Shown: piece after piece, positions 18,941 to 60,970 of the stretch
How positions within the stretch are numbered: position 1 is the stretch's first letter
Layout of the letters: the number at the start of each line of letters is the position of its first letter
Assembly: GCF_052324685.1 (NCBI RefSeq)
Contig: NW_027506903.1
Coordinates: 386,897 to 450,896, forward strand
Direction of reading: 5' to 3'
Origin: Brachyhypopomus gauderio
Taxonomy: Eukaryota; Chordata; Actinopteri; Gymnotiformes; Hypopomidae
DNA: 64,000 bases
The notes under the pieces: model-generated
What the model saw: only the letters and a program-made list of their open reading frames with translations
Database searches by the model: none
What the model was told of the DNA's origin: nothing
Position numbers and translations under genes: made by a program

Positions 18941-18950
18941 GTCATCAATC

Positions 18951-20150
18951 CTGTAAGGCTGTATTCTGAATGAGTAAGTAGCATCATTGTCTAAACAATC
19001 CTGTAAGGCTGTATTCTGAATGAGTAAGTAGCATCATTGTCTAAACAATCCTGTAAGGCTGTATTCTGAATGAGTAAGTAGCATCATTGTCTAAACAATC
19101 CTGTAAGGCTGTATTCTGAATGAGTAAGTAGCATCATTGTCTAAACAATCCTGTAAGGCTGTATTCTGAATGAGTAAGTAGCGTCATTGTCTAAACAATC
19201 CTGTAAGGCTGTATTCTGAATGAGTAAGTAGCGTCATTGTCTAAACAATCCTGTAAGGCTGTATTCTGAATGAGTAAGTAGCGTCATTGTCTAAACAGTC
19301 CTGTAAGGCTGTATTCTGAATGAGTAAGTAGCATCATTGTCTAAACAATCCTGTAAGGCTGTATTCTGAATGAGTAAGTAGCGTCATTGTCTAAACAATC
19401 CTGTAAGGCTGTATTCTGAATGAGTAAGTAGCGTCATTGTCTAAACAATCCTGTAAGGCTGTATTCTGAATGAGTAAGTAGCGTCATTGTCTAAACAATC
19501 CTGTAAGGCTGTATTCTGAATGAGTAAGTAGCGTCATTGTCTAAACAATCCTGTAAGGCTGTATTCTGAATGAGTAAGTAGCGTCATTGTCTAAACAATC
19601 CTGTAAGGCTGTATTCTGAATGAGTAAGTAGCGTCATTGTCTAAACAATCCTGTAAGGCTGTATTCTGAATGAGTAAGTAGCGTCATTGTCTAAACAATC
19701 CTGTAAGGCTGTATTCTGAATGAGTAAGTAGCGTCATTGTCTAAACAATCCTGTAAGGCTGTATTCTGAATGAGTAAGTAGCATCATTGTCTAAACAATC
19801 CTGTAAGGCTGTATTCTGAATGAGTAAGTAGTGTCATTGTCTATACAGTCCTGTAAGGCTGTATTCTGAATGAGTAAGTAGCATCATTGTCTAAACAATC
19901 CTGTAAGGCTGTATTCTGAATGAGTAAGTAGCATCATTGTCTAAACAATCCTGTAAGGCTGTATTCTGAATGAGTAAGTAGCGTCATTGTCTAAACAATC
20001 CTGTAAGGCTGTATTCTGAATGAGTAAGTAGTGTCATTGTCTAAACAATCCTGTAAGGCTGTATTCTGAATAAGTAAGTAGTGTCATTGTCTAAACAATC
20101 CTGTAAGGCTGTATTCTGAATGAGTTAGAAGTGTCAGCTGTAACTAATCC
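18951..20150 (+). repeat. 50-bp minisatellite, 23 near-perfect units plus degenerate end
   Basis: The unit begins CTGTAAGGCTGTATTCTGAA and repeats in exact 50-bp register from 18951. Units 1-23 differ at few sites, mainly GCATC/GCGTC/GTGTC; unit 24 (20101) and the following sequence are strongly diverged. The pattern of an old degenerate edge and a homogeneous interior suits unequal exchange or conversion. Confidence 0.95.
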
Positions 20151-20329
20151 TGTCAATCTGTAATCTGAATGAGTTTGAACTGTCATTGCCTAAACACTGC
20201 TGTAAGGCAGCGTGCCGAACGAGTTAGAAGACTCAGAGATATGAGCTCATGGCCAGGAGCAGCCAAGGAGACTGTGGTGTGCATCCCAATTACAGCATCA
20301 ATCACACACAACTATAAACACACATACAC

Positions 20330-23356: not shown

Positions 23357-24407
23357 TGCAGAACCCACACCACCAGGGGCAAGACCCACACCACCGGGGG
23401 CAGGACCCACACCACCGGGGGCAGAACCCACACCACCGGGGGCAAGACCCACACCACCGGGGGCAGGACCCACACCACCGGGGGCAGAACCCACACCACC
23501 GGGGGCAAGACCCACACCACCGGGGGCAGGACCCACACCACCGGGGGCAAGACCCACACCACCGGGGGCAGGACCCACACCACCGGGGGCAGGACTCACA
23601 CCACCGGGGGCAAGACCCACATCACCGGGGGAGGACCCACACCACCGGGGGCAGGACCCACACCACCAGGGGCAGAACCCACACCACCGGGGACAAGACC
23701 CACACCACCGGGGGCAAGACCCACACCACCAGGGGCAAGACCCACACCACCGTGGGCAAGACCCACACCACCGGGGGCAAGACCCACACCACCGGGGGCA
23801 GGACCCACACCACCAGGGGCAAGACCCACACCACCGGGGGCAGGACCCACACCACCGGGGGCAGGACCCACACCACCGGGGGCAAGACCCACACCACCGG
23901 GGGCAGAACCCACACCACCGGGGGCAAGACCCACACCACCAGGGGCAGAACCCACACCACCGGGGGCAGAACCCACACCACCGGGGGCAGAACCCACACC
24001 ACCAGGAGCAAGACCCACACCACCGGGGGCAGAACCCACACCACCGGGGGCAGGACCCACACCACCAGGGGCAGAACCCACACCACCGGGGGCAGAACCC
24101 ACACCACCGGGGGCAGGACCCACACCACCGGGGGCAGAACCCACACCACCGGGGGCAGGACCCACACCACCAGGGGCAGAACCCACACCACCAGGGGCAG
24201 AACCCACACCACCGGGGGCAGGACCCACACCACCGGGGGCAAGACCCACACCACCGGGGGCAGGACCCACACCACCGGGGGCAGAACCCACACCACCGGG
24301 GGCAGAACCCACACCACCGGGGGCAGGACCCACACCACCAGGGGCAGAACCCACACCACCGGGGGCAGGACCCACACCACCAGGGGCAAGACCCACACCA
24401 CCGGGGG
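23357..24407 (+). repeat. 21-bp minisatellite, about 50 units
   Basis: The unit is ACCCACACCACCGGGGGCA plus RG/RA. Because 21 is a multiple of three and no unit holds a stop, several frames stay open on both strands for hundreds of codons (a 7-residue PTPPGAx repeat on the plus strand). One unit near 23,630 lacks a base and shifts frame. The frames start in unrelated microsatellite sequence and no gene is supported. Confidence 0.95.
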
Positions 24408-27871: not shown

Positions 27872-28067
27872 CAGCAGAACCCGGATACGGCGGAACTCGG
27901 ATACGGCAGAACCAGGATACGGCGGAACCCGGATACGGTGGAACCAGGATACAGCGCAACCTGGATATAATGGAACCAGTATACGGCGGAACCCGTATAC
28001 GGCTGAACCGAGATACGGCGGAACCCGGATACGGCAGAACCAGGATACGGCGGAACTCGGCTACAGC
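27872..28067 (+). repeat. 16-bp minisatellite, about 12 units
   Basis: The unit is GCGGAACCCGGATACG with C/T and A/G variants. It is open in frame by chance. The repeat is CpG-containing and moderately diverged. Confidence 0.9.
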
Positions 28068-28254
28068 GTGCAAAATGCAGACGGGTTTGTGCAGGGGGTT
28101 AGAAGACAGCGGCTTGAAAGCCCCCAGGAGTAACGGACATCTCAGGCACGTTAGCCCAAGCGCCCTTTAAGCCTCGGATCCGGGTTACACTAGCAAAGGA
28201 GTAATTATTCATCATCAGCAGTAGCCAATCTGATGAGAGGAACACTTAGAGGAG

Positions 28255-29945
28255 GGGGGGGGGGGTAATGTGTGTGTGGGTGGGGAGAGGAGGGGGGGGG
28301 GTCATGTGTGTGTGGGTGGGGAGAGGAGGGGGGGGGTAATGTGTGTGTGGGTGGGGAGAGGAGGGGGGGGGGGTAATGTGTGTGTGGGTGGGGAGAGGAG
28401 GGGGGGGGTCATGTGTGTGTGGGTGGGGAGAGGAGGGGGGGGGGTAATGTGTGTGTGGGTGGGGAGAGGAGGGGGGGGGTCATGTGTGTGTGGGTGGGGA
28501 GAGGAGGAGGGGGGGGTCATGTGTGTGTGGGTGGGGAGAGGAGGGGGGGGGGGTCATGTGTGTGTGGGTGGGGAGAGGAGGGGGGGGGGTAATGTGTGTG
28601 TGGGTGGGGAGAGGAGGGGGGGGGGTCATGTGTGTGTGGGTGGGGAGAGGAGGAGGGGGGGGGGGGTCATGTGTGTGTGGGTGGGGAGAGGAGGGGGGGG
28701 GGGGTCATGTGTGTGTGGGTGGGGAGAGGAGGGGGGGGGTCATGTGTGTGTGTGGGTGGGGAGAGGAGGGGGGGGGGTCATGTGTGTGTGGGTGGGGAGA
28801 GGAGGGGGGGGGGGTCATGTGTGTGTGGGTGGGGAGAGGAGGGGGGGGGTCATGTGTGTGTGTGGGTGGGGAGAGGAGGGGGGGGGGGTCATGTGTGTGT
28901 GGGTGGGGAGAGGAGGGGGGGGGGGTCATGTGTGTGTGGGTGGGGAGAGGAGGGGGGGGGGGGTCATGTGTGTGTGTGGGTGGGGAGAGGAGGGGGGGGG
29001 GGTCATGTGTGTGTGGGTGGGGAGAGGAGGGGGGGGGGTCATGTGTGTGTGGGTGGGGAGAGGAGGGGGGGGGGGGGGGTCATGTGTGTGTGGGTGGGGA
29101 GAGGAGGGGGGGGGGTCATGTGTGTGTGGGGGGGGAGAGGAGGGGGGGGGGGTCATGTGTGTGTGTGGGTGGGGAGAGGAGGGGGGGGGGTCATGTGTGT
29201 GTGGGGGGGGAGAGGAGGGGGGGGGGGGTCATGTGTGTGTGTGGGTGGGGAGAGGAGGGGGGGGGGGTCATGTGTGTGTGGGTGGGGAGAGGAGGGGGGG
29301 GGTCATGTGTGTGTGGGGGGGAGAGGAGGGGGGGGTCATGTGTGTGTGGGGGGGAGAGGAGGGGGGGGGTCATGTGTGTGTGGGGGGGAGAGGAGGGGGG
29401 GGGGGGTCATGTGTGTGTGGGTGGGGAGAGGAGGGGGGGGGTCATGTGTGTGTGGGTGGGGAGAGGAGGGGGGGGGGGTCATGTGTGTGTGGGTGGGGAG
29501 AGGAGGGGGGGGGGGGGTCATGTGTGTGTGGGTGGGGAGAGGAGGGGGGGGGGTCATGTGTGTGTGGGTGGGGAGAGGAGGGGGGGGGGGTCATGTGTGT
29601 GTGGGGGGGAGAGGAGGGGGGGGGTCATGTGTGTGTGGGTGGGGAGAGGAGGGGGGGGGGGGTCATGTGTGTGTGGGTGGGGAGAGGAGGGGGGGGGTCA
29701 TGTGTGTGTGGGTGGGGAGAGGAGGGGGGGGGGGGTCATGTGTGTGTGGGTGGGGAGAGGAGGGGGGGGGGGTCATGTGTGTGTGGGGGGGAGAGGAGGG
29801 GGGGGGGTCATGTGTGTGTGGGTGGGGAGAGGAGGGGGGGGGGGGTCATGTGTGTGTGGGTGGGGAGAGGAGGGGGGGGTCATGTGTGTGTGGGTGGGGA
29901 GAGGAGGGGGGGGTCATGTGTGTGTGGGTGAGGAGAGGAGGGCTA
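28255..29945 (+). repeat. G-rich minisatellite, about 45 units of 33-42 bp
   Basis: Each unit reads TCATGTGTGTGTGGGTGGGG then AGAGGA then a run of 7-15 G. Length variation lies mostly in the G run. Each unit contains enough G tracts for a G-quadruplex. The first few units have TAATG in place of TCATG. The 450-550-codon frames across it (MCGWGEEGGG type) are artefacts. Confidence 0.95.
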
Positions 29946-30494
29946 TGATAAAAAGAAACAAGATGAGAAAGGAGAAGAAAGTGAACTGGGAAGAACAGAG
30001 AGAGCAAAAATTGAGAGAGAGAGAGAGAGATGTAAAAAGAGTCAATAACTAGGAAATGAAAATGGAGTGAGAGCAAGAGAGATGGGCAGAGAGAGAGAGA
30101 GAGAGAGAGAGAGTGAGAGAGAGAGAGCGGGTGAAAGACAAAAATAAACAGAAAAGCAGACAGGGACCTGGAGAGTGGCAGGTATTCCAGAGAGGTGATA
30201 ACGTGGTGAGGAGTGGAATATTAAACCGTGTGTGTAGGTCCATGTCGTTCTGCATCACTGACGCTCAGGTCCGTCGAACGCAGGAACTATTGTATTTACT
30301 GCCCTATTGGCAACTCAGAAGTGCAGCAAATAGGAGACGTGTTGAGATCCCTTCCTCTCTGTGTCAGAATGCAGAACGCACAGGGCAGATGTGAGATCCG
30401 CTGAGACCAATTACTCTTCTGGAAGGATAAGAAAAAAAAACTCAGGAAGATCCCTTGTGTTTTTATCTCCTATCACTGATAGTTATTTCCCTCC

Positions 30495-37379: not shown

Positions 37380-37954
37380 GGCATTCTAAAAAGTCCTAAA
37401 GTCATGAAATTCTCACCAGATCCACGCATGCAAAGCAGATGTCCATAAATTAAGTTGTGAAATAATGGGAAATGACACAGGCAAAAAATATTGAACACGC
37501 TTGCTGAAATGTATTTAATCCCTCATACAAAAGCCTTTGTTTGTGATGACAGCTTCGACACACCTCCTGTATGGAGAAACTAGTCACGTGCATTGCTCAG
37601 GTGTAACTGTGGTCCATTCTTCCACACAAACTCTCTTCAAAAAGTTCTGTGGGCTCCTACAATGAGTATCCATATAAGTTCTTTCAATATATTTTCAATT
37701 GGATTTAGGTCAGGTGATTGTCTGGGTCAGTCTAGTCTTTCATGGAGTCCAGTTGTGTTTCCCTGGCTGTGTGTTGGGGCTCATCGTCCTGCTGAAATGT
37801 CCCCCGTCGTTTCATCATCATCCTGGTAGATGGCGGGAGATTTTTTTTAAATCTAGAATGTGTCTGTACATTTTGCCATTTATCCTTCCTTCAATTATAT
37901 GATTTGTGCCAGTGTGGTATGCTGCCACGCCATGACAATCCCACCTACTGTTGG

Positions 37955-38785
37955 TGTGGTGTTTTTGGGGTGGTACTGGTGTGGTGTTTTAGAGGTAGTG
38001 TTGGTGTGGTGTTTTGGAGGTGGTGTTGGTGCGGTGTTTTTGTTGTGGTGTGGTGTTGGTGTTTTTGGTATGGTGTTGGTGTGGTGTTTTTGGGGGTGGT
38101 GTTGATATGGTGTTTTTGTTCTGGTGTGGTGTTTTTGGGATTGTGTTTTTGTTGTGGTGTGGTGTTGGTGTGATATTTTGGGGGTGGTGTTGGTGTGATG
38201 TTTTTGTTGTGGTGTGGTGTTGGTGTGATGTTTTGGGGGGTGGTGTTGGTGTGGTGTTTTGGAGGTGGTGTTGGTGCGGTGTTTTTGTTGTGGTGTGGTG
38301 TTGGTGTTTTTGGTATGGTGTTGGTGTGGTGTTTTTGGGGGTGGTGTTGATATGGTGTTTTTGTTCTGGTGTGGTGTTTTTGGGATTGTGTTTTTGTTGT
38401 GGTGTGGTGTTGGTGTGATATTTTGGGGGTGGTGTTGGTGTGATGTTTTTGTTGTGGTGTGGTGTTGGTGTGATGTTTTGGGGGGTGGTGTTGGTGTGGT
38501 GTTTTGGAGGTGGTGTTGGTGCGGTGTTTTTGTTGTGGTGTGGTGTTGGTGTTTTTGGTATGGTGTTGTTGTGGTGTTTTTGGGGGTGGTGTTGATATGG
38601 TGTTTTTGTTCTGGTGTGGTGTTTTTGGGATTGTGTTTTTGTTGTGGTGTGGTGTTGGTGTGATATTTTGGGGGTGGTGTTGGTGTGATGTTTTTGTTGT
38701 GGTGTGGTGTTGGTGTGATGTTTTGGGGGGTGGTGTTGGTGTGGTGTTTTTGTTGTGTTGTGGTGTTTTGTGTATGGTGTTGGTG
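37955..38785. repeat. Minisatellite with 245-bp higher-order unit, grown from transposase sequence
   Basis: GGTGTGGTGTTTTTGGGG-type motifs repeat throughout. A higher-order unit of 245 bp repeats at 38,014, 38,259 and 38,504, nearly identical each time, with a partial fourth. The motif equals the segment of the host Tc1-like element just before and after the array (37,955 and 39,200). Open frames on both strands come from the lack of stops in the motif and are not genes. Confidence 0.85.
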
Positions 38786-47487: not shown

Positions 47488-49444
47488 TCAGTTGTTTGGA
47501 GGAGGAGGGATCCCTCCTGGTCCATCAACAGGCAGTGGTGGTCGCAGGTGTGGAGGGAGAGCACCGGGAGGAGGCAAGCCAGGTGCATGGGGCATTTGTG
47601 GAGGTGCGGGGCCACTCGGGGGTGGCGGGGGCATGCCCGGCATACCCCCAGGGGGTGGGGGAGGCATTGCGTCACTGGGCGGACGAGGCCCAAGGCCAGT
47701 CATGAGAGGAGGGGGGCGTTTTATTCCAGCAGGGGGCATCTGGCTGGGTTGAGAAATAATCTTTTCCATCTTGAAGTGGAACTGCAGGAAAAACTATAGA
47801 GAGAAGCAAAGATGGGTTGTATATGAAGAGCCATAAAGTGCAAGAGTCAAAAGCAGTCTATGCAAATAAAAAGCTGTAAGGAAGCAGCCAGTGTAACCTC
47901 CAGCCAGAAAGGTTCGACTGTAACATGATTGCTAAAGCTCTACACGGGGGACACTTCAATCAAAAGTGAAAACTCCTTACTTGCTTCGTTTCCCTGTTCC
48001 AGTGTGTCCAGAAACGACTTTCTGATTTGTCTATCTCTCTGCTTGGAACCTGCGTATGTACAAAGAGAATCTTATTTTCTGCTGCATGAGAGATAACTCT
48101 GATGTTGATGCAATTAACGTGTGCTTGACCAAGATGCAGGTAAAATATACCTCCAAACAGCAGCCTCACACATCAAGTCATGTGACCATGTATTTTATAC
48201 AATACAAAAATATCGGGATCGTTTTTAATTGTGAGTAATACGTTTACCTTAAATGCGATGGTCTCATAGGGTTCTGCTGCCAAGAGCAAATACTGCCAGC
48301 GGCGGTCGGGAGGTTCGATTCGCTGTTCGTATGCAGACATGAACCGATGCCGGGGCCCTATGCCCTCTGCAATCTCAGGGTAATCAATCTGAGACACACA
48401 CACAAACACACACACATTTCAGACTCTCACCAGACTCTTAACTACATTTTGTTTCTAGGTTTGTCTGATGGACCATTTTCTTTTTTTGACACATATTCTG
48501 ATGTTCCTCTGTAACGAATGGATAACCTCAGACTCAGAACACACAGTGGAAGTCTACGGAGCAGTTTTAGTAGAGATTCTTCTGCAAATGCCACTAGGTT
48601 TTGTATTGTGTTTCAAGTCCAGCAACAACTCAAAACTGTCCATGGTAATCGACCACTCAATATAGACACAGTAACTAAAGAGTCCGTAAAAAAAACACTG
48701 GAATAACTCTTTAGTGCAGAAAAAGTACAGATGATTTTACCTGGAAAAGCAGACTCTGTTGGCCAGTTTCTGGATCCCTCTGCTTTGTAACTGTTAATGA
48801 GCAAAGGAATAAAGGAATGAATCTCAAAACAAAGCAAATTACATTCCACGCTGAACCAATCACAGCATAGTGGACTTGTACCTTTGTATCCTGGTCTCCC
48901 AATCTTAACAAACTTCTTCACCTCCACTTTTACCTTCTCAGGGGCTGGTTGGGCAGGGGCCTCTTTGGCTTCTTTAGCTGCTCTTCTTGCTCTGATTGGG
49001 GGAAAAACAAAAACAAAAAAGAGACAACAAAGTGAGGTCTCAGATGCCACAAACATTCCTGGATGATATTCACATGTGCAACTTGTACTTACAAATTAGT
49101 CTGGTGTTTCTTTCCCTGTGTGTGTGCAAGGTAACTCCCCTGAGAAAGAAAGAATTTCACGAATACGGACGAGATCAATATTACAGTTGAAAAGCAGGCA
49201 GACTGAATAATATCCGTCAATACTGGTTGCAATTTTACAGGCTCACCTCATTATTATGAAGTGTCAGACACAGCTTGCACTCATATGAACCCAAATGATT
49301 TTTCATAAAGTATGGGTCCTTATTGATGTCTATCGTTTCCAGAGCGAGTTGCCGCAGTCGCTCCCTGCGGTCTCGGTTGCTCTCCGAGGCCGAAGCAACT
49401 CCACCGCTGCCGGTCTTGCCACCGGCTCTGTGTTGGAAATCCAT
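47488..49444 (-). CDS. sf3a2: Splicing factor 3A subunit 2 (SF3a66), seven coding exons
   Basis: Coding exons in transcript order: 49444-49247, 49139-49093, 48991-48882, 48790-48741, 48388-48248, 48049-47981, 47793-47488. Phases agree and give 306 residues. The product is the SF3a66 component of the U2 snRNP, needed for prespliceosome assembly in the nucleus. The start MDFQHRAGGKTGSGG matches the family; an in-frame ATG four codons upstream is less likely. A matrin/U1-type C2H2 zinc finger is visible (Cys56, Cys59, His72, His78), then the basic ARRAAKEAKEAP linker, the KIGRPGYKVTKQRD segment, and the conserved block from DYPEIAEGI through RFMSAYEQRIEPPDRRWQYL to FWTHWNRETKQFFLQFHFK. The last exon is Pro/Gly-rich and short: the GVHPPAP-type repeats that lengthen human SF3A2 to 464 residues are absent. 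A 5' UTR intron is likely (acceptor just before 49495, donor just after 49855). Confidence 0.97.
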
Positions 49445-49854
49445 CTTTACAGACAAGACCCAGAACCTGAGACTGGATGACTGGATGAGCCGAACCTAAA
49501 TAATAACAAATAAATCAGGATATATGAGTACTCTAAAGAAAACCACCATTTAATGTAATACACAATAGTTAACTATGGTCAGACGTCAGTTAAAGAGAAA
49601 TTCTCAGGAGTTTAAAGTAATTCTTCAGTGTCTATTTAGCTAACGTTAGCTAGCTAGCTAATTATCCAGCTAGTTAGTTAGCCAAGTATCCCCATTCAAA
49701 CCAATGAGTGGTTTCTCTTTAACGTCAATAATATAGCTAATTATTTCTTTAATTTAACCTGCACATATACAGTACAATACAACATCCCCATATGAGCACA
49801 AGAACATCATGCATATCATGAAAACAGATTGTTTTTTACTAGTTAGCATGCTAC

Positions 49855-50514: not shown

Positions 50515-51703
50515 ATGCGCTTTAATGAGAAAGAGCTGGTGTTCCTGAGCCGCCAGCCGTCGGAGAGGGCGGCCGAGCTCGGAATGAAAGGACCCAAAAA
50601 AGGCGACGGTAGGTTTAAGGCGTTCAGTCTACAGTTAAATGAATCACATCCCCATTCAAAACCCTTATTTGTCGTGATTATCGTTTACACATACGTCTCC
50701 CGTACATGAAAATCTAACTATGAGTATTATACGCAATGTATTTGATGCCACTTTCTTCCTAACAGTTATGAAGAGGCGACTGGTGAAGCTGATAGTGAAT
50801 TTCTTGTTTTACTTTCGTACAGACGAAGAGGAGGTGGGGGTTTGACAACTAGTAACATTAACTTTAGTACGATGGAGTCGTTAAGTTCAGGACTGTATCG
50901 ATTAATGTTGGACGCGTTTATGTGTTTTGCAGCCAGTCGGGGCGTTGCTTTTGGAGCAGTGTCGAGTTGAGAGGGAGGATGATCTAGTCTTCTCCATCGG
51001 TGAGTTGAACGATGAGTTCAGCATCCTCTCATAGTACAGTAGGATATTTCAGAACAAGTGGGTTTAGCAAGAATGTGGTGTACCACGTATCTTTGGTACG
51101 TTGGAGGGGGGGGGGGGGGGGGCACTTGAGATTCTGCACTTCCTGTTTTACTCTGTGCAAATAGTATGCAAAATTTTCATGATGGCACATAAGGCAAAAA
51201 TGGTTCTCCATGTCAGTCTTTCTAGATGAAGCTGAGAGAAAGTACCTGTTTGAATGTGACTCAAAGGAACAGTGCGTGGAATGGATTGAAGCAATCGTCA
51301 AAGCCAGGTCCATAAGATTTAATTTTACATATTTCATGCAACGTCTCATACTGTCCACATTTGAAACATACAATTTTCTTTTTCCTTTCTGGTGCCAGCT
51401 ATGAGTTCATGAGGAAGAACCTGATCTTCTATCGTTCTGAGATCCATCGACTGACTGGAAAGGTAAAGACAGCATTCCTTAGTCACCAGAGGCTACATGT
51501 TTCCTGGAAGTACACCATAATGCATAACCGTACTCTACCTTAGCTTTTCAACTTGGGTCAGCTATCTCCGCCCATGTTAAGGTCTTTGATTGTGTTTGGT
51601 GTTCTCGTCCTTGTAGGACCCACTTGAGCAGTATGGGATTTCAGATGAGACCCGTTTTCAGGCCAGTAGTGGACTCCCACCTCTCCCCCCTCCCCCAACC
51701 TAA
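50515..51703 (+). CDS. plekhj1: Pleckstrin homology domain-containing family J member 1, six coding exons
   Basis: Coding exons: 50515-50608, 50766-50833, 50933-50999, 51217-51307, 51399-51462, 51617-51703. Phases agree and give 156 residues (human 149). The start MRFNEKELVFLSRQPSERAA is the family signature. A PH domain spans roughly residues 15-125: the strand KRRLVKLIVNFLFYFR, the PVGALLLEQCRV segment, the KYLFECDS strand and the C-terminal helix CVEWIEAIVKAS with the invariant Trp. The tail EFMRKNLIFYRSEIHRLTGKDPLEQYGI is also conserved; the last residues are a proline-rich extension. Human PLEKHJ1 function is poorly defined, with phosphoinositide binding on endosomal membranes suspected. 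For exon 4 I use the acceptor before 51217, because it preserves the length of the human FSISFIEDPE segment. Intron 3 holds a run of about 16 G at 51106-51121. Several AATAAA hexamers follow, the last at 53425-53430. Confidence 0.95.
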
Positions 51704-53488
51704 CCCAATGGGTCTGGGCTGCAAAACCCTGTGCCTGTGGAGTGTGTCCAAAACATAAAACCTGCTGTCATTTTTGGTCCTATTCAGACTTTTTTTTTTC
51801 AAATGCAATTGTCACTTTTTTTGTTAATTGTCTGAAAGGACAAAAGGCTATATCACTGTATACTACTGTTTTAATGATTGTGCAGTTATATATTTTGCAG
51901 GTGGTTTTATTATACAGAATGGCACTGTTATGAAAATCAGCTGAGAATGAGCCAGTAGCAATGCCTTTTAAAGCATCTGATATAAAATAGTATTTCTTTA
52001 CCTTATGTTTTAGGCTGTCGCGCTGATGGCCATTGTAATTTCTGTCAGCCATTACATCTTTTCTTGAGAAATAATAGGTTAGATCGGTTTTATAAATGTA
52101 CAGCAAAGGCAAACTGGGCGTCTTGTGATTTGTGTTTTGTTTAGGGTTTTACTTTTAAGACACTGATACGCTTTTAGACACCAATTCTCATGATTCATGC
52201 TGGGGTTTTCACGACACTGTAAATACCGCCGCCTTATCTGCATTTAGCTTGGTAGATTAGATATTATTTTAACCAGATTAGTGTTAAACCTTTTGGCCTG
52301 TGCACACGTGTGCTAGTCTAAACCAAACCATGTCCTGTTTTTGCTCATTTTTTTCTTTATCTTTTAAGGTTCATCAGTCAGTGCAGAATTTTACGTCTAG
52401 GTGTGTTTTAAAGTGTAGGTTGTTAATTTAGGATAACCTTACTTCATGGCCAACATTTTAGTGTCCATTCATGTTACCCATGATGTAAATAGCCACAATA
52501 ATCATCACCACAATCTTGTGAAAATGGTGAGCGTTAAAGAGGCACTAAAGCTGCTGCAGGCATGTCTCTGTGCTTCAGCAGCCCAGCCTGTGGCCTTGAG
52601 CTTAGACCTCTGCAATGAGTAGCCTTCTTCAAGGTGACCTTGTGTAAGGGCAATATGCAAATACCCACAGAGACGTTAAAAGGACAACAGGGTTGTTTGT
52701 CACATTTCACCAGGCAGGTGCAGCCAAGCACTTTTAGAAGAGAGAAAGGGTTAAATAAAGTTGATAAAAATATAATACATAGTTCATAAATAAAGTAAAA
52801 TTAATAAACCTGTTCATATAGGCTACTTTACATAGACTTTGTTACTGTAAAAGGCATTTTATATCTAAGAGTGGAACTAATCAGAGCTGCTCTTTAGTAA
52901 GGGTACAGGGACTTGCTGTGTTTGTCCTTTTGCAGATATTTTTGAAGGGTTCTGTAATGTGCGTTTATTAGCAAAATGACACAAAACCTGACTAATGAAT
53001 GAATGATTTCACTATGAGGGCGGGCCTATAGCAGCCTGTCCCTTTCACAGCCACTGCATTATTAGTCACTGTCTACATAATGGTACTGTAGCCAGCACTG
53101 CAAGTCAAACAAAAAGGTATATCTGGTTAACAACTAGCCTGCAGCATACAAAGCACAGATGAAGACAGATGCTGAACTGTATTTTGGAATCGAAGCAATA
53201 ATTGAACTGTCCTGTGTGATTTGGGAGAGGGGTGTGTGCAGGGGTACCTGCTTTGTACACTGTACGCCGATGTATTTCAGTATAGCTGCATTAGAACTTG
53301 CTGTGTCAAACCTTTAACTTTCAGACCTTGATTTCAATTGTGTTTTGCTTCTGTAAACCATACAGTTGAATTGTATTTGTGTGGATCATTTTACAATCTA
53401 AAATAAGCTGTTTTATATTTTTAAAATAAAGCCATTTACACTTTTTAGATTCTACAGATGGTTCATTGGCTGAGACACTTGTTGCTTC
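51704..53488 (+). other. plekhj1 3' UTR or flank, no other gene
   Basis: AT-rich unique sequence without coding signatures. AATAAA hexamers occur near 52753 and at 53425-53430. The second is close to the left end of the palindromic element, so a long plekhj1 transcript could end just before it. Confidence 0.35.
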
Positions 53489-53492
53489 TTAA

Positions 53493-56400
53493 GCCTGGTT
53501 TTATACTCGACGCGCCGGTCCGCGCGGCGAAAATGACGTAATCGCTGTGGCTCCGCCCGTGCGCGAGGGCCTCGCGCGCTGTCGCGACGCGAGGTCGTGC
53601 ACCTCTCGAATTTTGTAACTTCGCGCGCGACCAGGCTTCAGCGATTACGTCATTTTCGCCGCGCGGACCCTCGCGCCGCGTCAAGTATAAACCAGGCTTA
53701 AACCAGGCTTTACAGTGAAAGAGCACTGGGATTTGCTCTGGGTTTTCAGTGCAGAACGTTCAGGCTGATAAAACTATACCAGGACTTAAGCCTGGTTTAT
53801 ACTTTCGCGAGTGACTGTAGCGCGCGGCTCCGCCCACCTCGCGCGACCCTGCGCGAGCGGTAGGCCCCGTTTATACTTTCGCGAACGTCGCGAGCGTCGC
53901 TGCAGTGTTCTCCGAAACGATAGGTGGCGATAGGTGGCAGCGGAGAATAAAAAACCTCTGCAAAACCGGGGAAAGAACATTTTACCTGACCAGAGACCGT
54001 ATATATACACCAGGCATCAAACATAAATAGGCCCTATGGCTTTTGCAATGTTGTCCGAAACTATATGTGGTAATATAAAGAAACACCCCTCAAAAAAAGG
54101 GAATGTACATTTACCTGACGCATTTTAATGTTGCTTTGTGTTTCAGGTTTGAAAAGTGCTGGAATTTAGGCTAAAGTACATTAAAATGTTGAAATTACGT
54201 TAACAAATACGAGCCTCTCGTAATTCCAGGACGAAACATGAGAGAACGTGAAGACGTTAAGATTGGGCGTTTTGAAAATAAACCCATCAAATAATGTGAT
54301 AAAAAAGCGAATAATTTCGATTCATTTCGAGTATATGTATAAATATTTAACTTAATTAAGTTTAACGTGCTGGGAAATATTGAAATGGACCTTTAAAGTG
54401 ACGTACAAGTGCTTTAATTCCACCTTGTATAGGTGTATGAACCCTGCAAACATGACTTTGTCGATCGCGCTGAAGCGCGGCGCGCGCGCGAAGTTGCAAA
54501 ATTCGAGAGGTGCACGACCTCGCGCAGCGACAGCACGCGAGGCACTCGCGCACGGGCGGAGCCTCAGCGATTACGTCATTTTCGCCGCGCGGACCCTCGC
54601 GCCGCTCGCGGCGCGTCAATATTTAACTTAATTATGTTTATCATGCTGGAAAATATTGAAATGGACCTTGAAAGTGCCGTACAAGTGCTTTAATTCCACC
54701 TTGTATAGGTGTATGAACCCTGCAAACATGACTTTGTCGATCGCGCTGAAGCGCGGCGCGCGCGCGAAGTTGCAAAATTCGAGAGGTGCACGACCTCGCG
54801 CACGGGCGGAGCCTCAGCGATTACGTCATTTTCGCCGCGCGGACCCTCGCGCCGCTCGCGGCGCGTCAATATTTAACTTAATTATGTTTATCATGCTGGA
54901 AAATATTGAAATGGACATTGAAAGTGCCGTACAAGTGCTTTAATTCCACCTTGTATAGGTGTATGAACCCTGCAAACATGACTTTGTCGATCGCGCTGAA
55001 GCGCGGCGCGCGCGCGAAGTTGCAAAATTCGAGAGGTGCACGACCTCGCGCACGGGCGGAGCCTCAGCGATTACGTCATTTTCGCCGCGCGGACCCTCGC
55101 GCCGCTCGCGGCGTGTCAAGTACTTTCGCGAGCGACCGTAGCGCGCGACTTCGCCCACCTCGCGCGACCCTGCGCGAGCGGTGTAGGCGTTTATACTTTC
55201 GCGAACGTCGCGAGCGGCGCTGCAGTGTTCTCCGAAACGATAGGTGGCGATAGGCGGCAGTGAAGAATAAAAAACCTCTGCAAAACCGGTGAAAGAACAT
55301 TTTTACCTGACCAGAGACCGTATCAGGCATCAAACGTAAATATGGCTTTGCAGTGTTGTCCGAAACGATACGTTAACAAATACGAGCCTCTTGTAATTCC
55401 AGGACGAAACACGAGAGAATGTGAAGACGTTAAGATTGGGCGTTTTGAAAATAAACAACCATAAACTAATGTGATAAAAAAGCGAATTATTTCGATTCAT
55501 TTCGAGTATATGTATAAATATTTAACTTAATTAAGTTTAACGTGCTGGGAAATATTGAAATGGACCTTTAAAGTGACGTACAAGTGCTTTAATTCCACCT
55601 TGTATAGGTGTATGAACCCGGCAAACATGACTTTGTCCATCGCGCTGAAGCGCGGCGCGCGTGCGAAGTTTTCCAGCATGATAAACATAATTAAGTTAAA
55701 TATTGACGCGCCGCGAGCGGCGCGAGGGTCCGCGCGGCGAAAATGACGTAATCGCTGAGGCTCCGCCTGTGCGCGAGTGCCTCGCTGCGCGAGGTCGTGC
55801 ACCTCTCGAATTTTGCAACTTCGCGCGCGCGCCGCGCTTCAGCGCGATCGACAAAGTCATGTTTGCAGGGTTCATACACCTATACAAGGTGGAATTAAAG
55901 CACTTGTACGTCACTTTAAAGGTCCATTTCAATATTTCCCAGCACGTTAAACTTAATTAAGTTAAATATTTATACATATACTCGAAATGAATCGAAATTA
56001 TTCGCTTTTTTATCACATTATTTGATGGGTTTATTTTCAAAACGCCCAATCTTAACGTCTTCACGTTCTCTCATGTTTCGTCCTGGAATTACGAGAGGCT
56101 CGTATTTGTTAACGTAATTTCAACATTTTAATGTACTTTAGCCTAAATTCCAGCACTTTTCAAACCTGAAACACAAAGCAACATTAAAATGCGTCAGGTA
56201 AATGTACATTCCCTTTTTTTGAGGGGTGTTTCTTTATATTACCACATATAGTTTCGGACAACATTGCAAAAGCCATAGGGCCTATTTATGTTTGATGCCT
56301 GGTGTATATATACGGTCTCTGGTCAGGTAAAATGTTCTTTCCCCGGTTTTGCAGAGGTTTTTTATTCTCCGCTGCCACCTATCGCCACCTATCGTTTCGG

Positions 56401-56832
56401 AGAACACTGCAGCGACGCTCGCGACGTTCGCGAAAGTATAAACGGGGCCTACCGCTCGCGCAGGGTCGCGCGAGGTGGGCGGAGCCGCGCGCTACAGTCA
56501 CTCGCGAAAGTATAAACCAGGCTTAAGTCCTGGTATAGTTTTATCAGCCTGAACGTTCTGCACTGAAAACCCAGAGCAAATCCCAGTGCTCTTTCACTGT
56601 AAAGCCTGGTTTAAGCCTGGTTTATACTTGACGCGGCGCGAGGGTCCGCGCGGCGAAAATGACGTAATCGCTGAAGCCTGGTCGCGCGCGAAGTTACAAA
56701 ATTCGAGAGGTGCACGACCTCGCGCCGCGACAGCGCGCGAGGCCCTCGCGCACGGGCGGAGCCACAGCGATTACGTCATTTTCGCCGCGCGGACCCTCGC
56801 GCCGCTCGCGGCGCGTCGAGTATAAACCAGGC
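53493..56832. mobile_element. Fold-back (giant palindromic) TTAA-flanked DNA transposon-like element
   Basis: TTAA borders the element at 53489-53492 and 56833-56836. The ends are inverted copies of GCCTGGTTTATACTCGACGCG (left copy has one extra T). The left arm (about 53493-54660) and right arm (about 56832-55665) are reverse complements; a stretch of several hundred bases (53,930-54,480 against 56,390-55,850) looks essentially identical. The arms hold nested palindromes, each again bordered by TTAA (53703 and 53790 regions and their mirror images). The centre carries direct copies of a 250-bp unit starting near 54380, 54656, 54906 and 55555, plus a second partial copy of the arm at 55,120-55,550. 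GC-rich blocks (GCGCG-rich, with TGACGTAA) alternate with AT-rich blocks. No transposase frame is present, so it is non-autonomous. TTAA borders suit piggyBac or Kolobok; PIF/Harbinger (TWA target) is not excluded. Short open frames inside are repeat artefacts. Confidence 0.8.
54380..55130. repeat. Direct 250-bp repeats inside the palindromic element
   Basis: Three tandem units begin at GAAATGGAC near 54379, 54655 and 54905. Each runs through an AT-rich head, the GCGCGCGCGAAGTTGC block and the TTACGTCATTTTCGCC block. The first unit has an extra 26 bases (around 54,525-54,550). The third is cut where arm sequence resumes near 55,120. A fourth partial unit at 55,555-55,669 abuts its own inverted copy. 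Confidence 0.75.
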
Positions 56833-56836
56833 TTAA

Positions 56837-58595
56837 ACCAGGCTTTATAGTACGCTTCTGTAGGCTTGACTCATGATGTGTTCCTTTTCTATTTCATGTC
56901 AAGTCTTTTCACAGTGTTTGCTCTTCCTACACAGACAGGGGCCTTTCACACCCTGAGTTACGTCTGGCCTTGTTTGAACATGTCGTTGGTTCCTGTTTGA
57001 GTTGCTGACAGAATCTGAAGTAAGCCCGTGGAGATTGGTCTGATGGTTTATACACTTACCACATTGTCTCAATCGAGTGCTTTTCTTTTTCACCTTCTAA
57101 ATGACGCTGAAGCTTTGAAGCTACACACAAAATAAGGAAAATGGCAGTAAATTAATAGGATGTGAGAAACAGGAGGTGCAGTGGAGTTAGCAAACATCAT
57201 GACAAAGACCACCAGGACCACACCGTCTACTGGAACGAGATCCAAACAGATGTTGGAAATGTGGCTGTCTGCGAGGACGACCCGGTAACAAACACCCAGA
57301 TGAATTATTGATGCAGAGGTGTTTGTTAGGCTTCATGTTGAGTGCAGGACACCCAAGTGCAGAGATCCGTGGCGTCTCGCAGCATCCTGTGTCCTGCGAG
57401 CCCTTAGTCCCGCACTTCCATTTGCGGTTTGATGTGTCTGCTTACTCGAACCCCACCCCCCACCCCACCCCCCCACCTCAGCTTGCTGATGTTGACATCA
57501 GAGGCCACAAACACTGTTGTGTGCAAGATCAATGTGTGAAGGCATCCTTTGATGTTTCTAGATGAAACCTTTGCTAAACAAAAACAAAATCAGAAACTTT
57601 CCTACTGCAGTGTTTGTCCTAATAAAGATACAATTGGGCACAATATACTCAAAGCGATGGTTTCCTATTAGGTCTGAAGCACATCACAAGGTTGGCCCAT
57701 TAAAAGAGCTGAGCTGATAACCTTAGCAACACATTAACTACTGGCTAAAGGCACAGCCCAAAATAGACTGAGCTATAGCAGAGCTCTGACTGGTTCTATT
57801 CTCGACAATATTAGTTCAGTATTTCTGGATCTAGATCAGGCTGCTAAAATTGTGTCCATTTGAGTTGCTTTGTAAACAATTTTAAGGTAATCGTGGAGTT
57901 CTAAAGTTCTCTGGAGCTTAATGTATCTGTGTTTTATTTAATTTACTGACATTTCTTTGTCATATGTCTTGGTTTAATGTGAGTAATTAATGTCGAACGA
58001 AAAGGAAACCGGAGGAACTCAATATGCAATTATTTAAACATGGTCTACTGAAGCTATACTGAATGTGAATTAGTTCAGAGCTTAGCTTTCAGTACTGAAG
58101 AAGGAACTAAGGCCTTTCTGTTCTGGAAAGTAAACACTGACATTGCCACACTTAACAAAATACCAAATACCTGGGTGCATGAGTAGGCATAATTCCACGA
58201 AATTAATAATAATGGCTTCACATTCAACGTGTTCCTTTTATTGTTGTGGGCATAAAGTGTTTCTGCATAATCTTATATTAATGAACAAAGCAACATCACA
58301 GTTGTAATGAAGCTACTCATTTATTCTCCAATTTATCCAAATTTGAAAGTTGAATATGACTTGAAAAATGTCTCTGAGGTCACAATAACATCTAAAAAAA
58401 GAGTCACAATTTTTACCACCGCACTTTTTAAAGTTACTCTTACAGCCTGGCGGAGTCAGAAAGTCACAGAGCAGATGAGTGACTAAGATGTCTAAGAGTA
58501 AGCACGCTAAGTGATTTTTATTATTATTTGAGCATTTTTCTCCTTCAGATGTTGCGTAAAATGCATATTCGTCAAACAATCACACGGTAAACCGA
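56837..58595. other. Intergenic, no gene seen
   Basis: Moderately AT-rich unique sequence with short C-rich tract near 57,465. Open frames are short and without family motifs. No tRNA or recognised repeat was noticed. Confidence 0.5.
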
Positions 58596-59506: not shown

Positions 59507-60806
59507 TCAGCTCACCACTCGGACCCGGGCTACGAAGAGGGCGGCGGCCTCATCCTCAAACTCCCGCGCGTCCATCGTGGGCCCCGCCTGCTGCCCCGCC
59601 ACGGCCCCCGCCCCGGCCATCGCGCGCGCCAGCTCGCCGGGCGAGATCATGGCACTGGCCTCCAGGTACCGGGCGGCGTCGGGCCCGTGCGAGGCCTCCA
59701 GCGCCCCCCGGAGGGCGGCCAGCACCGCGCGGCACAGCGCCCTGTCCGCGCTCTGCTCCGGGCTGCTCGCCACGGCCGCGTACAGGCACCGGGACTTGCG
59801 CACATAGTCGGCGAACACGGCGCACGTCAGCGCCCCCTGGCGGAAGAGCTCGAAGGGCACGGCCTCGTAGTCGTGGCAGCGGAGGCGCCGCAGGAGGGGC
59901 GCGGCGGCGGACATGGACAGGCCGCTGTCACTGCACAGGCACCGCAGGGTCTCCGTGTACAGGTGACCCGGAACGCCGCCCAACACCTGTCGACCAGAAC
60001 CGTTCTGGGTGAGAAGGTCGTAGGCCACGCTGATGTTGTTGTTGAATGCAGCCCTGAAGCAAAAGCAATAGCGAAGATGTAAGTTAAAACGTACTAATAC
60101 AGTTAGTTGATGTAGTGTCCTGCAGAATTTTTGCACCAGCCTTAATCTAACGCACACCTCAACCAAGTGTTCAATCAAATGCTGCGCAATTAAGATTAAA
60201 TTCAGCGAGATGTTGATATGAGTGTGATATATGTGCACTATCGTTTAATGCTTTTAGGCATGCCGGGGTTGCACCGAAATCTGTGACCTGCAGAGAGCAT
60301 CGTTGCACATTTTCTGCACGTGTGTCATATATTCTGACAACTGCTCTCATTTTTTATAATAATTTATTGTAATTTAGACGCAAGTTAATGTAAGCCTATT
60401 ATAAAAGATTAGGTCTAAACGACATGCACCTCATGCATGCAGACGTGCATAACTGCATAACTAAAGGGGCCTGCCCTGCGTGCTCGGACACGTGTGTGCA
60501 GCACCGTTGTGAATGGTGGGCCAGGTTCAGGTGCCACAGCGCCCTGCTCAGCCGCTGCTCGTGCGTCGTATCGGGCTGCCGCCCGTCGCCTCGCTCCGCG
60601 GTGCCGTTCTCCGTCTCCAAGGCTAGGTTACCGAAGTGCTCGGCGAGGAAACCTATCGGGTCCTCCGACCGAGCCTCCACCAGTTTCAGCAACGCATTTC
60701 GCAGCAATGCGCTGACACCGGCCTGCGCGAGGAACTCGTGATCGCTCTCGGCTTTACCGAGTTTTGCGTCGGACGCGCCCACCCCGGACCTCCTCTTTTC
60801 CGCCAT
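59507..60806 (-). CDS. tpgs1: Tubulin polyglutamylase complex subunit 1, two exons
   Basis: Exon 1 is 60806-60505 and exon 2 is 60053-59507; the Arg codon CG|G is split at the junction, giving 282 residues (human 290). The product is the scaffold subunit (PGs1) of the TTLL1 tubulin polyglutamylase complex, which adds glutamate chains to tubulin tails in cilia, centrioles, sperm flagella and neurons. Diagnostic segments are FLAQAGVSALLRNALLKLVE, the ALWHLNLAHHSQR|AAFNNN junction seen also in human, LLRRLRCHDYEAVPFELF, and the C-terminal EFEDEAAALFVARVRVVS. The start ATG is followed by AEKRRSGVG, close to human MAAVEKRRQA. Exon 2 is very GC-rich (about 59,510-59,980), unlike flanking AT-rich DNA. 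Exon 1 and its upstream sequence to about 60,960 form a CpG-rich promoter. A broken duplicate of exon 2 lies downstream. Confidence 0.96.
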
Positions 60807-60970
60807 TGTGTGCCTGAATTATCTGCGCGCACGCAAATACTTTTTCTAAATATTATGTCCAGGCATGCATGTTAGCTACAAATGAACAATATAATTGCGA
60901 ATTCGTTTAGCTAACCTTTATTGTAGCACACAATCAGCTAGCTAGTCAGGCACGCAACTGCGGGAGGGGA
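60807..60970 (-). promoter_or_regulatory. tpgs1 5' UTR and promoter region
   Basis: Sequence just upstream of the tpgs1 ATG. CpG-rich sequence runs from exon 1 into this stretch, and a GGGAGGGG tract lies at about 60,962. No TATA box was recognised. The promoter assignment is positional. Confidence 0.35.

Follow-up and report, generated by a model that had tools for sequence, protein, structure and literature searches.

A TTAA-bounded near-palindrome of 3.3 kb in Brachyhypopomus gauderio, probably a young fold-back composite of short DNA transposons

The 64,000-nucleotide stretch of DNA analysed here (the window) contains a 3340-bp near-palindrome, at positions 53493-56832, that is flanked by TTAA on the left (53489-53492) and on the right (56833-56836). 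We read this element, with a probability of about two-thirds, as a young composite of the fold-back type, built from short DNA transposons with TTAA borders; it carries no recognised genes, and any movement would rely on a transposase supplied elsewhere. Three parts make up the composite, namely an outer fold-back MITE-like element (S), a spacer (Y) and an inner element (X), of which a second, truncated copy is also present; they are arranged as follows.

53489..53492, unstranded: outer left TTAA (putative target site), read from the sequence
53489..54653, plus strand: left arm, 1165 nt by alignment, putative template
53493..53697, plus strand: S_L, a small MITE-like palindrome of 205 bp (GC 0.64) that carries a T insertion and a 14-nt deletion, both derived
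53698..53701, unstranded: TTAA joining S_L and Y
53702..53785, plus strand: Y spacer, 84 bp, with TTAA on each side
53786..53789, unstranded: TTAA at the start of the inner element X
53790..54341, plus strand: segment A of the first X copy (X1), first letters GCCTGGTTTATACTTTCGCGAG
54342..54617, plus strand: B1 repeat of 276 bp, the 150 bp on its 3' side being 94% identical to the S end
54618..54867, plus strand: B2 repeat of 250 bp, the first 36 nt of which close the left arm on its inner side and match the inner end of the right arm
54868..55117, plus strand: B3 repeat, 250 bp, differing from B2 at 2 of 250 positions
55112..55125, plus strand: B3/A' junction, read as two family ends with a common TTAA whose palindrome centre was lost
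55121..55516, plus strand: A', truncated second copy of A (in the second X copy, X2), with 17 substitutions in 391 positions and a 132-nt internal gap
55517..55670, plus strand: B4, truncated B of X2, cut at the palindrome junction
55669..55670, unstranded: inner junction of the inverted copy, a 2-nt TT overlap
55669..56836, minus strand: right arm, 1168 nt by alignment, putative inverted copy
56523..56526, unstranded: TTAA mirroring that at 53786
56527..56610, minus strand: Y' spacer, identical to Y
56611..56614, unstranded: TTAA joining Y' and S_R
56615..56832, minus strand: S_R, small palindromic MITE-like element, 218 bp, GC 0.66
56833..56836, unstranded: outer right TTAA (putative target site), read from the sequence
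56837..56851, unstranded: right flank repeating the start of Y, at 18 of 19 positions with the TTAA counted

Both arms end in TTAA on the outer side and are separated by a loop of 1015 bp, so the element shows the trait by which fold-back elements are recognised, inverted termini of great length that enclose a shorter centre. Alignment of the arms gave 1154 columns with 2 substitutions (0.17%) and 3 gaps (1, 14 and 10 nt), and the longest identical run was 939 columns, or 943 by a second count, the edge of a gap being ambiguous. The original prediction of a near-perfect 3.3-kb palindrome with TTAA borders therefore holds to the exact base, as do its mirrored arms of about 1.15 kb, their identity across several hundred bases and the smaller TTAA-bordered palindromes at the ends (S_L and S_R); it had also proposed counting the differences between the arms, which are these two substitutions and three gaps. 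The 300-bp flanks show no palindromy (score −191, versus −179 ± 13 for 200 shuffles). In a control for perfect inverted repeats of at least 20 nt, from which pure runs of 1-3-base units were removed, the longest in the rest of the window was 71 nt, and the six inverted repeats listed in this control sit at CA/TG arrays. A blastn search of the element against the window (E ≤0.01) matched only the element itself and 15 nt of the right flank. The TTAA on both sides is its own reverse complement, and one copy fits a 4-bp TTAA duplication or a 2-bp TA duplication alike.

Within the element, X comprises a family end, segment A and then B1, B2 and B3, and A' and B4 (55121-55670) follow B3. S is short (205-218 bp) and has inverted ends, and given its 94% identity to the 3' end of B1 we take it to be a small fold-back version derived from that same end. 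The family end, GCCTGGTTTATACT, is present as five exact copies and one with an inserted T, and all six lie immediately after TTAA, which has a density of 0.59% in the window; owing to the palindrome, at most three of these six copies are independent. When up to three mismatches were allowed, 17 matches to the end were found versus 5.05 expected by chance, including two copies with two mismatches (53864, plus strand, and 56435, minus strand) that are internal and do not adjoin TTAA. Single TTAA sites are common to S and Y and to Y and X, which could be explained if copies inserted at TTAA sites beside earlier copies and so came to share the TTAA. Likewise, the B3/A' junction (55112-55125) corresponds to what remains if back-to-back family ends around one TTAA, a 34-bp palindrome, lose their centre. 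There is a parallel in corals, where the passages on piggyBac-like MITEs describe a composite, CMITE-IN, that arose via insertion into the TTAA between two direct repeats, and tandem CMITE arrays that the authors ascribe to replication slippage (PMC2872659). By analogy, slippage is a possible source of the arrays here too.

In the right flank (56833-56851), 18 of 19 positions agree with the start of Y. S_R thereby occupies the centre of a 34-bp near-palindrome (two mismatched positions, which make up one base pair), with the start of Y as the left half and the outer flank as the right. This near-palindrome may be the remnant of an element that received S, or part of a second Y.

To place the palindrome relative to the duplications inside it, substitutions were compared between each pair of related segments and between the arms (2/1154). 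The arms are much closer than S and B1 (8/149; Fisher p 9e-7), A and A' (17/391; p 6e-9) or B1 and B2 (6/250; p 0.0006), and closer than B1 and B4 (3/153; p 0.013); the pooled X1/X2 comparison gave 20/544 (p 1e-8 versus the arms). By these counts, the X1/X2 and B1/B2 duplications clearly predate the palindrome, or its latest homogenisation. Between the arms and the B2/B3 pair (2/250; p 0.15) there is no significant difference. A layer-by-layer clock was given up because A/A' differ by 4.35% but B1/B4, which belong to the same X1/X2 pair, differ by 1.96%, and X1/X2 and B1/B2 do not differ significantly from each other (p 0.40). The differences between the arms were polarised by eye against the paralogous copies, which placed the T insertion, the 14-nt deletion and one substitution as derived on the left arm, and the 10-nt deletion and the other substitution as derived on the right.

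Close similarity could also mean that the element is older, a TTAA-bounded fold-back whose arms were kept similar through gene conversion. All five arm differences lie outside the 939-column identical run (P 0.0017 for five events placed uniformly), and the internal repeats that are not mirrored in both arms have diverged by 0.8-4.4%, both of which speak for conversion. However, clustering is not significant for the two substitutions by themselves (P 0.09 given the 956 columns measured between them, or 0.12 using a shorter run), and the indels fall in the outer and inner stretches of the arms, where GC is 0.66 and 0.58 versus 0.45 in the clean stretch; such GC-richer stretches are plausibly indel-prone and can account for the clustering. 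The CpG observed/expected ratio of the element is 1.67, amid CpG-poor surroundings (0.51 in the rest of the window), and gives no sign of long decay. As conversion between the arms would not halt CpG decay, this ratio argues for youth rather than long maintenance, unless the element is unmethylated, and its being kept unmethylated, instead of young, could be the source of the high CpG. Taken together, we consider maintenance by conversion unlikely.

Under the preferred reading of a young composite, the inner ends of the arms suggest which of them was copied. At its inner end, the right arm has 36 nt that agree with B2 and B3 at 36/36 positions and with B1 and B4 at 32/36. In the left arm B1 continues directly into B2, whereas in the right arm the B2 piece ends after 36 nt and meets the truncated B4 via the TT overlap. 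Because the B2 piece runs on in the left arm and is cut in the right, the left arm is the likelier source, and the simplest reading would make it the template and the right arm an inverted copy. An overlap of 2 nt is common by chance and, taken alone, is weak evidence of microhomology; in the data given for gap-filled TIR elements of animals, the median microhomology is 2 bp (PMC8277862). Two independent insertions of one element in opposite orientations were rejected, as the inner arm ends (54653 and 55669) have no family end and the right inner end cuts a B repeat after 36 nt.

The anatomy, borders and divergence levels are observed; from them we infer transposition, a break and a template switch in three steps, including the order of events within the second. 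A MITE family with ends TTAA-GCCTGGTTTATACT would first have given rise to the inner element X and to the small fold-back derivative S. Single TTAA sites would then have become common to copies, yielding S-TTAA-Y-TTAA-X1 and X1-(TTAA)-X2, and the B segment would have been duplicated in tandem. In a recent third step, the right end of X2 may have been lost through a break or a failed excision, after which repair synthesis, switching template at the 2-nt match, could have continued along the element's left end and copied the series B2 (36 nt)-B1-A-Y-S outward up to the terminal TTAA. The outcome would be an identical 1.16-kb end at either side.

It is also conceivable, if quite unlikely, that the whole palindromic unit was made elsewhere and transposed here as one, as part of an established multi-copy fold-back family. 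At both outer borders the family end adjoins TTAA, and in corals the CMITE-IN composite is reported to be excised as a unit (PMC2872659). Against this, the border of Y is repeated in the right flank, which suggests a local history; had the entire unit inserted cleanly into unrelated host sequence, no such repeat would be expected. An assembly artefact, caused either by a read that folds back on itself or by misjoining of an inverted duplicate, is very unlikely: near-perfect arms are typical of such artefacts, but the identity stops at TTAA on each outer side with unrelated flanks beyond, the five differences can be polarised by eye through paralogous copies, which make three of them changes of the left arm and two changes of the right, and the loop carries a diverged repeat structure of its own. 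A young fold-back transposon, one of three options left by the original prediction, is thus the best fit of the three, given the TTAA-limited identity, the polarised differences and the high CpG. The original prediction was also right to withhold a family assignment. Neither the rule for piggyBac ends nor that for Kolobok ends describes those found here.

The ends begin with GCCTGG after the TTAA. Published passages on piggyBac elements give ends of CCC or CC[C/T]T, with CACTA also listed (PMC10813416, PMC2872659), and GCCTGG corresponds to none of these, with TTAA at both borders of one copy. Kolobok elements are described as having a TTAA target and terminal RR nucleotides (PMC6004289); the TTAA is present here, and the terminal nucleotides are GC instead of RR. 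For PIF/Harbinger and ISL2EU (PHIS) elements, the target duplication is given as TWA or A|AT|T (PMC4482050). The borders here are TTAA without AT, which speaks against ISL2EU, and a TTA or TAA reading is possible only if the two ends are offset by one base. Of the 54 open reading frames of at least 45 codons in the element, the four that were compared with Pfam (123, 120, 103 and 90 codons; E ≤1) gave no match, and Rfam, at gathering thresholds, gave no match in 52500-57800. Exact end and core patterns had no hits in viral and prokaryotic contig collections, and a distant blastn search against a phage collection found nothing, results that have little bearing on animals. A full-text literature search with 13 nt of the end, on both strands, found no occurrence. 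The passages retrieved from the literature on TTAA, Kolobok, ISL2EU, fold-back, MITE and teleost elements offered comparators and no match to these ends, and those on teleost Harbinger-like elements give no end sequences (PMC9179366).

Among these comparators, the structure resembles Galileo, Tetris and a palindromic MITE group in cod, and is an unusually readable case and not a new kind of mobile element. Galileo, a fold-back-like member of the P superfamily in Drosophila, is described as having TIRs of up to ~1.26 kb that were lengthened by inverted duplication of inner sequence, and also by ~210-bp internal tandem repeats, with no transposase in the copies with the longest TIRs (PMC3573991). 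In contrast to the present element, the same description gives Galileo 7-bp target sequences and a P-type transposase, and the TIRs of its longest-TIR copy are 95.2% identical, compared with 99.8% of aligned columns here (PMC3573991). Tetris, a fold-back element of D. virilis with a suggested Mutator affinity, is likewise presented as non-autonomous and modular with a variable middle, and its TIRs reach 1,735 bp with ~220-bp tandem repeats; it differs in its 8-10 bp target duplications and AT-rich repeats, where we find TTAA borders and CpG-rich sequence (PMC4079207). A fish counterpart is gadMor-hAT-1784, a set of hAT-derived MITEs at inversion breakpoints of Atlantic cod, reported as palindromic with 600-bp TIRs and internal inverted repeats in tandem (167-169-bp units), but these are assigned to hAT, whereas the arms here are longer and bordered by TTAA (PMC12368964). 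In that account, long inverted repeats of such a kind are proposed as drivers of chromosomal inversions, cod being an example (PMC12368964). The coral CMITE and CMITE-IN elements share TTAA borders, tandem arrays and composites formed by TTAA insertion, but have ends with a CC[C/T]T motif and direct repeats around TTAA instead of a near-palindrome, and long palindromic arms do not feature in the description available (PMC2872659). T2-MITE, a Kolobok element of Xenopus, shares the TTAA target site but is listed with RR ends (AGGRR in T2), whereas GCC follows directly after TTAA here (PMC6004289).

Several tandem repeats lie elsewhere in the window. A 37-bp G-rich minisatellite of ~46 copies (28248-29942; GC skew +0.84 over 28001-30000) has all three forward frames open for most of its length and is possibly quadruplex-prone. 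A GT-rich minisatellite (37949-38785) is built of 25-bp units, with a higher-order unit of 245 bp at 98%. A 50-bp tandem repeat is present in 25 copies with 96% matches (18946-20208), and a 21-bp tandem repeat in 50 copies (23358-24407), the latter with several open frames, including a 650-codon stop-to-stop frame.

The element sits among genes. To its left are an sf3a2 exon (49238-49495, minus strand) and a PH-domain exon (51183-51401, plus strand; Pfam PH E 0.0025, below its cut-off), which we take to be plekhj1-like. To its right, tpgs1, encoding tubulin polyglutamylase complex subunit 1, lies on the minus strand at 59510-60244 (Pfam PF24480, E 1.2e-64), with a second piece at 60402-60818, also on the minus strand (E 1.4e-4, below cut-off). 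Together, these genes mark the window as animal DNA. An AATAAA at 53425, with the palindrome 64 bp downstream, may be the polyA signal that ends the plekhj1-like gene. For maize Mu killer, a hairpin formed via read-through from a flanking gene is proposed in the account consulted (PMC3440606). If a read-through transcript folded here as a long hairpin RNA, it might by analogy silence the very transposon family from which it comes, as a natural equivalent of Mu killer in animals, an idea that we regard as extremely improbable.

Studies of fold-back elements whose inverted ends are very long usually draw on many rearranged copies. Here, one locus retains a truncated B2 fragment that suggests which arm served as the template. 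If this reading is true, the element would be a clear snapshot of the birth of a fold-back through inverted copying in an animal genome.
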